NCBI GenBank assembly: GCA_018401615.1
Contig: JAGYKN010000005.1
Coordinates: 1-64,000, forward strand
Direction of reading: 5' to 3'
Source: Burkholderiaceae bacterium
Lineage (GTDB): Bacteria; Pseudomonadota; Gammaproteobacteria; Burkholderiales; Burkholderiaceae_A
Length of the DNA: 64,000 nt
Shown here: positions 14,405-19,447 of the stretch, piece by piece
Position numbering within the stretch: position 1 is the first letter of the stretch
Layout: each line of letters opens with the position of its first letter
The notes under the pieces: generated by a model
What the model saw: the letters and a program-made list of their open reading frames with translations, nothing else
Databases searched by the model: none
Told to the model about the DNA's origin: nothing
Position numbers and translations under genes: made by a program

Positions 14405-14712
14405 GCCCATATAAACACCATGTCTTCTTTTGCACCAACCAACGCAACGCCGGATCAGACTGCTGCAACAACTGCGGGGCCTCTGCACTCCAGGCCCATG
14501 CCAAGGACCGCATCAAGGCCCTGCGACTCAACGGCGAGGGCAAGGTTCGAATCAATAAAGCTGGGTGCCTCGACCGATGCGACTTTGGCCCTGTCATGGT
14601 GGTCTACCCAGAGGGCATCTGGTATCAGTACGTCGATCAGACGGACATCGACGAGATCATTGATCAGCACCTTGTCAAGGGCGAGCCCGTGGAGCGACTT
14701 CGGATCGCGTGA
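14401..14712 (+). CDS. Thioredoxin-like [2Fe-2S] ferredoxin
   Basis: Small protein (103 aa) of the thioredoxin-like 2Fe-2S ferredoxin family (NuoE-like fold). Cluster-ligand candidates lie in FFCTNQR, DCCNNCG and AGCLDRCDFGP. The ATG at 14401 shares bases with the VanZ stop and matches the family N-terminus (YKHHVFFCTN); a longer frame to the left lies inside vanZ. It is probably co-translated with the following hydrolase (GTGA overlap at 14709-14712). The electron partner is unknown. Confidence 0.88.
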   Translation: MSPYKHHVFFCTNQRNAGSDCCNNCGASALQAHAKDRIKALRLNGEGKVRINKAGCLDRCDFGPVMVVYPEGIWYQYVDQTDIDEIIDQHLVKGEPVERLRIA

Positions 14713-15374
14713 ACGCCCAGACCGACGTCCACCTTATTGCGGGACCAGCTGGCGCACTGGACATTGCACTAGACCGGCCAGCCGCTGGCGTCTCCCCGAT
14801 TGGCCTGGCCGTGATTGCCCACCCCCATCCTTTGTTTGGGGGCACCCGCGACAACAAAGTGGTTCAGACCATCGCCAGGGCCCTGATGAGTCGCGGACTG
14901 ATCTGCCTGCGGCCCAATTTTCGAGGGGTCGGCCAGAGCGAGGGCGCTCACAGCCTGGGCATTGGTGAACAAGACGACCTCTGGGCCACCTGGCAATGGG
15001 CCGAAGCGACCCTTGGCGCCAATGCAGGGCCCAGCCGTTGGATGGCAGGCTTCTCGTTCGGTGCAGTGATGTCGTCTCACCTGGCCGCAAACTGGGAGGC
15101 TGGTCGAGCAGCCCGAGGGCTGCCGCCACAGCGACTCGGGGTCTGCCTGCTGGTGGGGCTGGCCACAGAGCGCATGTCGCCATCGCCCCCCGTGGCGATG
15201 ACTCGAATGATCCATGGTGAGGCCGACGATGTGGCATCGCTTGCGGGCGCCCTTGACCATGCCCGTCCCTTCAAACAGCCGGTCATGGTCTTGCCTGGGG
15301 CCGGCCATTTCTTTCACGGCATGCTGCCTGAGCTGCGCGAGATGGTGGTCCAGGCGGTCGCAGACATCTCGTGA
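14709..15374 (+). CDS. Alpha/beta hydrolase
   Basis: Cytoplasmic alpha/beta hydrolase of 221 aa resembling the dienelactone-hydrolase/YbgA-type family often annotated simply as alpha/beta hydrolase. It has HPHPLFGGTRDNKVVQ, RPNFRGVGQSEG and the nucleophile elbow GFSFG (Ser about residue 119); late Asp in GEADDVA and His in GAGHFFHG complete a likely triad. Starts with GTG overlapping the ferredoxin stop, and its own stop overlaps the next gene's GTG. The substrate cannot be assigned. Confidence 0.85.
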   Translation: MNAQTDVHLIAGPAGALDIALDRPAAGVSPIGLAVIAHPHPLFGGTRDNKVVQTIARALMSRGLICLRPNFRGVGQSEGAHSLGIGEQDDLWATWQWAEATLGANAGPSRWMAGFSFGAVMSSHLAANWEAGRAARGLPPQRLGVCLLVGLATERMSPSPPVAMTRMIHGEADDVASLAGALDHARPFKQPVMVLPGAGHFFHGMLPELREMVVQAVADIS

Positions 15375-16612
15375 GCGCCAGCGCAACCCTCAAACCACCC
15401 CCAGTCACGCATGGGCTGACCACTGGTTTTGTTGGGGCCCTGATTTGCATTTTCTCTTTAATGGCCGCATCCACCCATGACGCTCAGGCCCAGACCCCCC
15501 AATGGCCAAGTCCCAACGGGGTGTCGGCCAAGGCCTGGATGCTGATTGATCTGAGCACCGGTCAGTCACTAGCAGGCGTTCGGGAGTCCACACCCACTGA
15601 ACCCGGCGGCCTGTCCGTCCTGATGACCGCCTACTTGAGTTTCACGGCGCTTCGGGAGCGTCAAATCCGAATGCAACAAGTGCTCCCAGGCCCGCTTGAA
15701 AATGAAGTGCCGGCCGGGCCAAGGATGTTTCTGGGGGCAGATGGTGCCAAGGTAAGAGACCTCCTCACGGGGGTCATGCTCATGGGTGCGCATGATGCTG
15801 CGGTGAGTCTGGCCAAGGGCATCTCCGGCTCGGAGGACGCCTTTGTGGCGCTCATGAATCAGACCGCCAAGCGGCTTGGCTTACACAACACACGGTTTAC
15901 CAATGCGAGTGGTGCACGAACCGATGTCAATCCAGCGCAGACCACCGCACAAGAGATGGCTGCGCTTGCCATCCAGTTGTACCTCGAATTTCCAGAAGCC
16001 TTTCAGATTGCCAATCAGCGCGAGATCACCTTCAACGGGATACGGCAAACCAACCGCAATCGACTGCTCTGGCTTGACCGCAGTGTGGATGGGCTCATCG
16101 CCATTGACCACCCCACACAGGCCTCCGGCCTGGTCACCGCTCGGCGGCCCCAGCCAATTGGTCCTCGCGAGCAGATCCAACGGCGCCTGATGGTGGTCGT
16201 GTTGCAATCCGACTCTGCTGAGGTGCGCGCCCAAGAGACCCTTGAGCTCTTGAATTTCGGCTTCCAACAGTTCGATGTGGTCCGTCTTTTTAAGCACAAT
16301 GCGGTGGGCTCTGAACTCGAGGTCTTCAAGGGCATCCGCGCCAAATTAAAGGCCGAGTTTCGACAAGATGTCTTGGTGGCTGCGCCGAGATCGCGCTTTG
16401 GTGAACTTCGAACGGAGTTGCAGACCGGCGCCGGCCTGGTGGCCCCTGTCACGGCAGGTCAGCGGGTTGGGAGCATGCGAATTTACCTTGGCCCACTGCA
16501 GATTCATGAGGTGGACCTGGTGGCGGCGGAATCCGTGAAAACCGCCGGCCTGCTCGGGCGCGCCATCGACAGCGTGCGCCTCTTGGTTCGCCCACCCTTT
16601 AAGCCCTTATGA
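15371..16612 (+). CDS. dacC: D-alanyl-D-alanine carboxypeptidase homologue lacking all catalytic motifs
   Basis: Homologue of PBP5/6-type D,D-carboxypeptidases (413 aa) in the conserved place before dat-ybeD-lipB-lipA. An N-terminal hydrophobic segment (about 18-40), the peptidase fold and the C-terminal PBP5-type domain with amphipathic end (about 380-413) are kept: LMTAYLSF, KRLGLHNTRFTNASG and RNRLLWLDRSVDGL align well. However, the SxxK site reads GLSV (residues 80-83), the SxN site reads GAH (139-141) and the KTG site reads IAI (243-245). It should therefore be unable to bind penicillin covalently or cleave D-Ala. The frame is intact, suggesting a retained structural or regulatory role. 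Confidence 0.85.
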   Translation: MSASATLKPPPVTHGLTTGFVGALICIFSLMAASTHDAQAQTPQWPSPNGVSAKAWMLIDLSTGQSLAGVRESTPTEPGGLSVLMTAYLSFTALRERQIRMQQVLPGPLENEVPAGPRMFLGADGAKVRDLLTGVMLMGAHDAAVSLAKGISGSEDAFVALMNQTAKRLGLHNTRFTNASGARTDVNPAQTTAQEMAALAIQLYLEFPEAFQIANQREITFNGIRQTNRNRLLWLDRSVDGLIAIDHPTQASGLVTARRPQPIGPREQIQRRLMVVVLQSDSAEVRAQETLELLNFGFQQFDVVRLFKHNAVGSELEVFKGIRAKLKAEFRQDVLVAAPRSRFGELRTELQTGAGLVAPVTAGQRVGSMRIYLGPLQIHEVDLVAAESVKTAGLLGRAIDSVRLLVRPPFKPL

Positions 16613-16655
16613 TTTGATCCCCTGCGATTTGACCCCCTGTGAATTGATTCTCGAT
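16611..16655 (+). repeat. Three imperfect 15-bp tandem units between dacC and dat
   Basis: Units GATTTGATCCCCTGC (16611-16625), GATTTGACCCCCTGT (16626-16640) and a more diverged GAATTGATTCTCGAT (16641-16655) fill the gap from the dacC stop to the dat start codon, which lies in the third unit. No hairpin or clear ribosome-binding site is formed. Confidence 0.75.
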
Positions 16656-17541
16656 GACTGACTTTTTATTTCCAGCCGATCTCGACCCAGAGGCACCGGC
16701 CTACCTCAATGGTTCATGGCTCGCCCTCTCCCAGGCACGCGTGTCTGTCTTGGATCGCGGATTCCTCTTCGGAGACGGCATCTATGAGGTGGTGCCGGTC
16801 TATGGTCGCAAGCCCTTTGCCTGGGATGGGCACCTGGCCAGGCTGCATCGAAGCCTCGCAGCGCTCTCGCTGGAGTCCGCAACAGCGGCCATTGACTGGG
16901 CGGAGATCGTCCAAGGTCTGATTGCTCAGGCCAAGGCGCAGGACCAATTCATCTACCTTCAGGTGACACGCGGGGTGGCCAGACGGGACCACAGTTTCCC
17001 CCGGCCTGCCGTGCAGCCAACGGTCTTTGCCATGGTCAGTCCGCTCAAGCGGCCAAGTGCCCAAGACCGGGCCGAGGGCCTTCGTGCCATTAGCCTGCCC
17101 GACGAACGTTGGCTGCGTTGCGACATCAAGTCGGTTGCGCTCCTGGGCAATGTGCTGGCCAGGGAGACAGCCGTGGCACAGGGGGCCCATGAGGCGATTC
17201 TCTCTCGCCAGGGGTTTCTCACAGAAGGTGCCGCCTCCAACATCTGGGTGGTCAGCCAGGGCCGTCTGCGCTGTCCGCCCCGTTCCAATCAGCTGCTCGC
17301 TGGTATTCGAATGTCGATCCTTCCCGCCCTGGCGCGCGCCCTAGAAATTCCCTTTGAAGAGGGCCCCATTGCCCAGACCGAGGTCTTGCAAGCCGATGAG
17401 CTCTTGTTGACCTCGGCGACCAAGGAGGTGATGCCCATCACGCTGCTCGATGGCAGGCCAGTCGGCACCGGTGTCCCCGGACCGGTCTTTCACGCCCTGC
17501 GGGCCGCCTACGACCAGGCCATTGAGGCCCATTGCGCGTGA
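16654..17541 (+). CDS. dat: D-amino acid aminotransferase
   Basis: Pyridoxal-phosphate enzyme of fold type IV (295 aa) interconverting D-Ala/2-oxoglutarate and pyruvate/D-Glu. Family marks: YLNGSWLALSQARVSVLDRGFLFGDGIYE at the start, the PLP lysine in CDIKSVALLGNVLA (about residue 158), HEAIL, EGAASNIWV and TSATKEVMPIT. It lies between the dacC homologue and ybeD, with a GTGA overlap to ybeD. A branched-chain or aminodeoxychorismate lyase role is less likely given the gene neighbourhood. Confidence 0.9.
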   Translation: MTDFLFPADLDPEAPAYLNGSWLALSQARVSVLDRGFLFGDGIYEVVPVYGRKPFAWDGHLARLHRSLAALSLESATAAIDWAEIVQGLIAQAKAQDQFIYLQVTRGVARRDHSFPRPAVQPTVFAMVSPLKRPSAQDRAEGLRAISLPDERWLRCDIKSVALLGNVLARETAVAQGAHEAILSRQGFLTEGAASNIWVVSQGRLRCPPRSNQLLAGIRMSILPALARALEIPFEEGPIAQTEVLQADELLLTSATKEVMPITLLDGRPVGTGVPGPVFHALRAAYDQAIEAHCA

Positions 17542-17807
17542 GTGTCTCCGACGAGACCCTGCTCACTTTTCCCTGCTCATTTCCGATCAAGGTCATGGGG
17601 GAGCGCAGGGACGATTTTGCGCAGACGATCCTGGCTGCCGTTGAACACCTCAGCGGCCCACTCCAGGCCGACCAGGTGGAAATTCGATCCAGCCGCACCT
17701 CAAAGTACCTGAGCGTGACGCTGATCGTTCAGGCCCAATCGAAGGCACAACTCGATGACATCTATCGAACCCTCACCAGCCATCCCATGGTCAAGCTCGT
17801 GCTCTAA
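17538..17807 (+). CDS. ybeD: DUF493 (YbeD) family protein
   Basis: Small protein of 89 aa of the YbeD/DUF493 family, an ACT-like fold. The block TFPCSFPIKVMGE and the strand SSRTSKYLSVTLIVQAQSK, ending HPMVKLVL, are characteristic. GTG start shares bases with the dat stop. ybeD commonly lies before lipB; the role in lipoate supply or regulation is unproven. Confidence 0.9.
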   Translation: MSVSDETLLTFPCSFPIKVMGERRDDFAQTILAAVEHLSGPLQADQVEIRSSRTSKYLSVTLIVQAQSKAQLDDIYRTLTSHPMVKLVL

Positions 17808-17829: not shown

Positions 17830-18450
17830 ATGATCCGCCGACACCTCCTACAGACGTCATATGCGCATGTCTCTCAAGAGATGCTCGCGTTCTCCCTGGC
17901 CCGAGACGCCGACACGCCAGACGAGCTCTGGCTGATTGAGTGCGATCCCGTCATCACCCTTGGACTGGCTGCTGACCCCAGACACATCCTGCGTGCTGGC
18001 GACATTCCAGTCCTTCAGACCGATCGCGGGGGGGAGGTGACCTACCATGGTCCCGGTCAACTCCTGGTCTTTCCACTGCTGGACCTGCGGCGTCAAGGCC
18101 GCATGGTTCGGGAGACGGTGAGACTCTACGAGCAGATCGTCATCGACTGGGTGGCAAGCCTTGGCATGTCCACGGCCTGCCGGTGGCAAGGCGAGCCTGG
18201 CCTCTACCATCGTGGTGTCGACGGGGTGCTTGAGAAGTTTGCAGCCCTGGGCCTGCGGATTCGAAAAGGCTGCACGACCCACGGGTTGGCGATTAACCTT
18301 GACACCGACCTCTTGGCCTTCGAGCGCATCAATCCGTGTGGTCATGCTGGGCTTGGGGTCACGGACCTCGCTACACTGGGCATGAACGTGAATTGGCAGA
18401 CGGCTGCCGATGCGCTTGGCGATCGCTTTGACGAGGCCTTTCAGAGATGA
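17830..18450 (+). CDS. lipB: Octanoyl-[acyl-carrier-protein]:protein N-octanoyltransferase
   Basis: Transfers octanoate from acyl-ACP to lipoyl domains. The conserved [20 protein letters not shown] (about residues 60-80), the catalytic Lys in [19 protein letters not shown] and the catalytic Cys in INPCGHAG are present. ATG at 17830 gives 206 aa; a longer frame would run into ybeD. The end of the gene overlaps a 14-bp tandem duplication that separates its stop from the lipA start. Confidence 0.93.
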
Positions 18451-18464
18451 CCCTTCAGAGATGA
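18437..18464 (+). repeat. 14-bp tandem duplication at the lipB-lipA junction
   Basis: CCTTTCAGAGATGA (18437-18450) and CCCTTCAGAGATGA (18451-18464) differ at one base. The first copy supplies the lipB stop (TGA), the second the lipA start (ATG). Before the duplication the two genes would have overlapped as ATGA, the usual pattern in this genome. Confidence 0.85.
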
Positions 18465-19447
18465 CCGAGACCGCCCACCAACGACAGCTCGACCTGGGGC
18501 CACAGCGACCCAATCCAAAGCTCAAGGGGGCGGCCAAGGTGGCCAAGATTCCCATCAAGGTGATTGCGCCTGAGCAGCCACTGCGCAAGCCCGACTGGAT
18601 TCGAGTCAAGGCTCCCTCCCCCAATGGCCGGTTCTCAGAGATCAAGTCGATTCTGCGGGAACACCGCCTTCACACCGTCTGCGAGGAGGCATCCTGTCCG
18701 AACATTGGTGAGTGCTTTGGGCGTGGCACGGCAACCTTCATGATCATGGGCGATAAGTGCACGCGCCGTTGCCCCTTCTGCGATGTGGGCCATGGTCGCC
18801 CTGATCCGCTTGATCTTGACGAGCCCGGCAACCTTGCCAAGACCATTGCGGCATTGCAACTGCAATACGTGGTCATCACGAGCGTTGACCGGGATGACCT
18901 CAAAGACGGCGGCGCCCAGCACTTTGTGGATTGCATTGAGGCCGTGCGCACAGCCTCGCCCCAGACGCGGATCGAGGTCTTGGTGCCAGATTTTCGCGGC
19001 CGCATGGACCGCGCCATCAGCATCCTGGAGGCCGCACCGCCTGATGTCATGAACCATAATCTCGAGACCGTGCCACGCCTCTACAAAGCGGCCCGGCCAG
19101 GCTCCGATTACCAACACTCATTGAGGTTGCTGCACACCTTTAAGGAAAAGGTGCCCCATGTGCCCACCAAGAGCGGCATCATGCTCGGCCTTGGAGAGAC
19201 CCTGGAAGAGGTCTTAGAGGTCATGCAAGACCTGCGCAGGCATCGTGTCGACATGCTCACCGTGGGGCAGTACCTGGCCCCATCTCAGGCCCACTTCCCC
19301 GTTGTGCGCTACGCCCTGCCCTCAGAATTTAAGGCCATTGAATCTCAGGCAAAGGACATGGGCTTTGTTCACGCGGCAGTGGGTCCCTTGGTGCGCTCGT
19401 CGTATCACGCGGACCAGCAAAGCCAAGGCGTGCTCCAGGCCCCTTAA
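18461..19447 (+). CDS. lipA: Lipoyl synthase
   Basis: Radical-SAM enzyme inserting two sulfurs into protein-bound octanoate (328 aa). The auxiliary cluster motif [12 protein letters not shown], the radical-SAM motif [13 protein letters not shown] and the C-terminal RSSYHAD serine motif are all intact. The ATG at 18461 lies in the second copy of a short duplication; an in-frame upstream extension lies within lipB. It ends 33 nt from the convergent TlpA-like gene. Confidence 0.95.

Follow-up and report, generated by a model that had tools for sequence, protein, structure and literature searches.

The DD-carboxypeptidases DacC and DacA (PBP5 and PBP6) of Proteobacteria belong to MEROPS family S11, whose active members carry an SxxK motif with the nucleophilic serine and the basic lysine, an SxN motif and a KTG motif. 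In E. coli, PBP5 requires its membrane anchor for localisation and for its shape function, and the inactive variant PBP5(S44G) has neither complemented shape defects nor kept its septal localisation (PMC2909392). Two old questions about these proteins are why several redundant small penicillin-binding proteins are kept, and what PBP5 does for shape beyond trimming. Among wall enzymes of other types, the degenerate LytM factors EnvC and NlpD have been retained because they control other hydrolases (PMC5533458), the catalytically degenerate Csd2 of Helicobacter pylori pairs with its active homologue Csd1 (PMC5053510), and a catalytically inactive mutant of Bacillus subtilis PBP 2B has revealed a structural role in division that is independent of catalysis (PMC5656894). 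In the literature searched, whose scope left most subscription papers outside, we have found no description of a naturally dead PBP5. A dead PBP5 that is under selection where its active ancestor lay, accompanied by stepwise intermediates in a sister genus and by independent parallels in other families, separates the enzyme activity from the other work of the protein, and a cultured carrier, the isolate LSUCC0115, makes the question testable.

Gene Locus and Protein Architecture

The window (the whole stretch of 64,000 nucleotides that was analysed) carries on its forward strand, at 15371..16612, a pseudo-dacC gene of 413 codons, which starts with a GTG that overlaps the stop codon of the upstream gene. 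Its translation has given 413 aa free of stop codons, confirming the uninterrupted frame described in an earlier, sequence-only reading of this DNA. All features given below lie on the same strand. An alpha/beta hydrolase-like gene (14709..15374) is found directly upstream, and the other neighbours are dat, a class IV aminotransferase (16654..17541), ybeD (DUF493, 17532..17807), lipB (about 17830-18450) and, following it, lipA, the lipoyl synthase (18410..19447). The order dacC-dat-ybeD-lipB-lipA, together with upstream alpha/beta hydrolase, ferredoxin-like and VanZ-like genes, is common to the dead lineage and its active relatives (e.g., L109, L131, L160). The synteny with Betaproteobacterial DacC thus agrees with the place before dat that had first been read as the usual one of dacC and, judged by position, the gene is the orthologue of DacC. 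Active relatives have these same neighbours, and the comparison has offered no hint of a partner at the locus. In LSUCC0115 (L095), as in the dead forms of f18 genus g20 and of f19 described below, dat is missing between dacC and ybeD. A phage origin has been rejected, as the gene has no viral relatives and sits in a syntenic locus.

The encoded protein begins with a predicted Sec signal peptide (15371..15490), in which a hydrophobic helix at residues 20-34, also seen in the structure model, is followed by AQA at 38-40. The S11 peptidase-fold domain (residues 47-300, 15509..16270; PF00768, 131.7 bits) and the PBP5_C domain (residues 301-390, 16271..16540; PF07943, 47.5 bits) both exceed the Pfam cut-off. 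They are followed by a C-terminal amphipathic membrane anchor, AGLLGRAIDSVRLL (residues 391-407, 16541..16591), which is the part with the highest conservation. PBP5, PBP6 and DacD are the best solved relatives by PDB sequence alignment, and as the Pfam and PDB matches are all of the S11 fold, a LytM (M23) fold is absent from the protein. The AlphaFold2 model, built from 52 sequences, has reached a pLDDT of 91.1 and a pTM of 0.84, with the C-terminal helix at 394-406, and Foldseek has ranked PBP5 of P. aeruginosa first (4k91, TM 0.92), followed by PBP6 of E. coli, with TM to target of about 0.9; the retained PBP5 fold that had been read from the sequence is therefore borne out by the model.

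In the phylogenetic tree, from which the PBP7 rows have been left out, the dead lineage forms one clade (100/100) beside active DacC on a long stem (1.11 changes per column), and the window's genus is one clade (100/99) within it. Scores to PBP7 are far below those to DacC.

Loss of the Catalytic Motifs

In the window protein, aligned with solved chains and with the other copies of the genus, the former SxxK motif reads GLSV (residues 80-83, 15608..15619), the former SxN motif GAH (139-141, 15785..15793) and the former KTG motif IAI (243-245, 16097..16105), the last being followed by Asp246, which is genus-invariant except in L030. These residues align opposite SLTK, SGN and KTG of the solved PBP5, PBP6 and DacD chains, exactly at the residues and coordinates given by the sequence-only reading, and none of the three motifs of an active S11 enzyme is present. 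No displaced motif is conserved in their stead either: the sole SxxK in the window protein, SLAK at 146-149, is not conserved in the genus. Based on these residues, the protein is almost certainly non-catalytic, and we infer that it would neither cleave D-Ala-D-Ala nor bind penicillin covalently.

The loss is not confined to one sequence. The analysis covered 26 genomes from the family of the window genome (f1), in three genera (the window's genus 11, g2 7, g3 8), and the carriers of dead DacC form a freshwater and coastal lineage. Ten of the 11 genomes of the window's genus hold the gene, the exception being a genome of 75% completeness, and all 10 copies are without all three motifs. In nine of them the SxxK site has become GLxx, with the lysine replaced by V, S, A, L or G, the SxN site reads GAH, GAL, GAQ or AAH, and the KTG site [MLFYI]A[TAI]; the tenth copy, L030, shows SALA, QAR and LGS. 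An artefact of sequencing or assembly has been ruled out as the cause of motif loss, since nine further genomes of the genus, each assembled independently, show the same losses. The sister genus g2 carries the gene in 7/7 genomes, always in an intermediate form in which S[LM][TSA]K is retained, SGN has changed to GAH or NAH, and KTG to MTG. Every motif is intact in ~65 named orthologues from other Betaproteobacteria. Genus g3 has the gene in none of its eight genomes (G012, G014, G016, G018, G020, G022, G024 and G025), in which a recognisable LipB has not been found either. Among the named carriers, LSUCC0115 belongs to the MWH-UniPo clade, and its cryostocks are obtainable on request (PMC6952679). 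Two MAG records, L094 and L135, are titled Bordetella parapertussis, although their DacC groups with environmental Betaproteobacteria; these species labels look wrong, and L094 is a member of the window's genus.

A weak penicillin-binding protein or carboxypeptidase working by an unusual mechanism could be conceived from the sister genus, whose retained SxxK serine and lysine make acylation thinkable there. The window's genus is without both residues and has no conserved displaced SxxK, and we hold this explanation to be hardly credible.

The changes are centred on the active site. Among 86 columns that are invariant in active enzymes, 25 have been altered in the genus, and these make up 15/20 of the columns within the motif segments vs 10/66 outside (Fisher p 1.1e-6, odds ratio 16.8). 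The active site has been erased, and the scaffold is retained. New features have also appeared. With L030 left out, the genus copies agree at positions 80, 117, 244, 246 and 252, where neither the sister genus nor active enzymes have the same residues, and Asp246 and Ser252 are gains of the window's genus only. Gained in both genera are His379 and RPQPxG at 259-264, which lies in a lengthened loop, RPQPIGPREQIQRR (residues 259-272, 16145..16186), where P260, Q261, P262 and G264 are invariant across the dead lineage; a shorter version of this extension is already present in active relatives. The invariant positions could be taken to mean that the cleft has been rebuilt as a different catalytic site with new residues (G80, A244, D246, S252), but no evident nucleophile-base pair or metal site is formed, H141 varies among the genus copies, and Asp246 is missing in the fast copy L030. 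A new enzyme is therefore quite improbable.

Selection Versus Decay

The closest pairs of the genus have given Nei-Gojobori dN/dS values of 0.035, 0.057, 0.074 and 0.094, pairs within g2 0.03-0.06, and active DacC pairs from other families 0.12-0.26, all of which are approximate because many pairs come close to saturation of dS. Consequently, we have also relied on a comparison of identity with the neighbour genes, which is free of dS. In the closest pairs of the genus the identity of dacC exceeds that of dat and lipB, as seen for L090/L091 with 91% in dacC, 77% in dat, 76% in lipB and 93% in lipA.

Slow decay, in which a useless DacC is on its way to being lost, would fit the missing gene of g3 and the very fast evolution of L030 (end branch 3.6). 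It is nevertheless very improbable, as the gene has been retained from the ancestor that two genera share, its frame is open and free of stop codons in every copy of the family, dN/dS amounts to 0.03-0.1 with conservation above that of dat and lipB, and the changes are concentrated within the motif segments. Lost motifs combined with an open frame and purifying selection are what characterises a pseudoenzyme under selection, and the earlier proposal of a pseudoenzyme rather than a decaying gene has held. It is strongly supported by frames that are open throughout the genus, by a dN/dS far below 1, by a conservation that exceeds that of the neighbours, by the intact fold and by the focus of the changes on the active site, and neither of the two findings named beforehand as speaking against it, displaced motifs or stop codons in close relatives, has turned up.

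Constraint has shifted within the protein as well. Mean identity within the genus is 77% in the anchor, 62% in the N-terminal (catalytic) domain and 61% in the C-terminal domain, and in active enzymes it is 67% in the catalytic domain, 56% in the anchor and 50% in the C-terminal domain. Even L030 shares 13/17 anchor residues (76%) with the window protein, the two domains being only 36% and 29% identical.

Other Wall Enzymes

No second intact dacC has been found in the window genome's assembly, which is 86% complete; its only other S11 enzyme is of PBP7 type and, like its DacB (family S13), keeps its motifs, so that the loss is specific to DacC. Loss of peptidoglycan synthesis has been excluded, as PBP transpeptidases occur in 26/26 genomes of the family, and the VanY type has been found in none of the 26. 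Five members of the genus (G001, G005, G006, G007, G010) show no DacB match above the cut-off, and G001 and G010 no PBP7 match either; these five may run on very few DD-carboxypeptidases, but because G001 has one AmpH-like match, we do not claim the absence of every such enzyme. In G008, the source of L030, DacB matches only as two fragments.

Recurrence in Other Burkholderiales Families

Further DacC genes with lost catalytic residues have been found in other families (L240-L248, L176, L225, L179, L222, L263, L236, L278, L184), mostly at the same locus; many of these genomes were chosen for low scores, so the following counts are not frequencies. Loss has been seen in 5/5 examined copies of f18 genus g20 (PLTK/GAN/ILG and similar), with f18 genera g59 and g91 intact, in 5/5 of f19 genera g21 and g151 (DLVQ/AAE/MSS and similar), in 2/3 of f2 genus g4 (NAN with MAG or MTG; the third, G075, is intact), and in 3/3 of f24 genus g26 (HLTK in one; ATG or QTA). 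Two copies of f44 genus g46 read ALTQ and three others keep the serine and both lysines, and one of three in f22 genus g24 is changed (MSG). Forms with one changed residue may still be active. Two of the transitions (f2 g4, f44 g46) fall within a genus that also has intact relatives. Outside f44 the gene is followed by ybeD, lipB or dat, as in f1; the f44 flanks examined contain none of the three. Four f24 genomes (G094, G175, G326, G403) hold a further short S11 protein with an open frame of about 266-274 aa, which may have assumed the carboxypeptidase function.

Parsimony, run without the motif columns, has required at least four changes where two or more residues are lost and six for loss of the serine. 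A single origin of all dead forms has been rejected (AU test p 5e-8), as has f1+f2 as one clade (p 5e-6); against f1+f18+f19 as one clade the test speaks only weakly (p 0.03), and it does not reject a group made up of f18 g20 and the intact members of f18 (p 0.41). The dN/dS of the recurrent-loss lineages is 0.05-0.30. Related families have lost catalysis repeatedly, which suggests that a non-catalytic job predates the loss. We tentatively extend this to an ancient non-catalytic role of DacC/PBP5 that might act through the C-terminal domain and membrane anchor, independently of carboxypeptidase activity, the activity having been lost repeatedly and independently in Burkholderiales (f1, f18, f19, f2, f24, f44) with the second role preserving the protein; this is a possibility to which we give somewhat less than even weight.

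Possible Roles

With moderate confidence, we regard the gene product as a secreted pseudoenzyme derived from the DD-carboxypeptidase DacC (PBP5 type), which is anchored in the inner membrane and would act by binding, probably as an adaptor or regulator of other wall enzymes. What the sequences themselves show is that the whole genus has lost all three catalytic motifs and that fold, signal peptide, C-terminal beta domain and anchor persist at the old locus under strong purifying selection. The proposed adaptor would sit on the outer side of the inner membrane and position or tune other wall enzymes (PBP1/2/3, DacB or PBP7), much of the constraint now falling on its anchor and C-terminal domain; loss of catalysis would follow once trimming by DacC was no longer needed. 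The scaffold or peptidoglycan-binding role suggested in the sequence-only reading is a plausible hypothesis. Several observations count against the adaptor reading: the neighbouring genes are the ordinary ones and point to no partner, PBP5 of E. coli, given the PBP5(S44G) result, is not known to have a non-catalytic role, and g3 has lost the gene together with lipB, so that it is dispensable in some relatives.

Ranked second behind the adaptor or regulator, and unlikely in our estimate, is a ligand-binding sensor or cap, whose old cleft would hold pentapeptide stems or another wall fragment uncut and thereby protect or report them. The fold persists, as do most of the columns that never vary among active enzymes, and EnvC uses a degenerate cleft similarly, but on a protein partner (PMC5533458). 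Lost, however, are the substrate-holding residues of KTG and SxN, the cleft differs between members of the genus (GAH, GAL, GAQ, AAH), and the septal localisation lost by E. coli S44G has been attributed by its authors to lost substrate interaction (PMC2909392).

Comparison with Known Systems

Dead wall hydrolases that act as regulators are already known, and the evidence suggests that a natural lineage of dead PBP5 with intermediates and parallels is new, as far as the searched literature shows. EnvC and NlpD are alike in being wall-hydrolase homologues without catalytic residues, but their fold and chemistry are unrelated, so that the analogy is functional only, and their partner is known. 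Csd2 is likewise a catalytically degenerate member of its family, and differs as an M23 metallopeptidase with an identified active partner. PBP 2B, by comparison, is a high-molecular-weight class B PBP that is naturally active. Closest of all are DacC and DacA themselves, with which the window protein shares the domain order, the fold (TM 0.92 to 4k91), the signal peptide, PBP5_C, the amphipathic anchor and the Betaproteobacterial gene neighbourhood, and from which it differs by the missing SxxK, SxN and KTG motifs, the longer loop at 259-272 and an anchor that has become its most conserved part.
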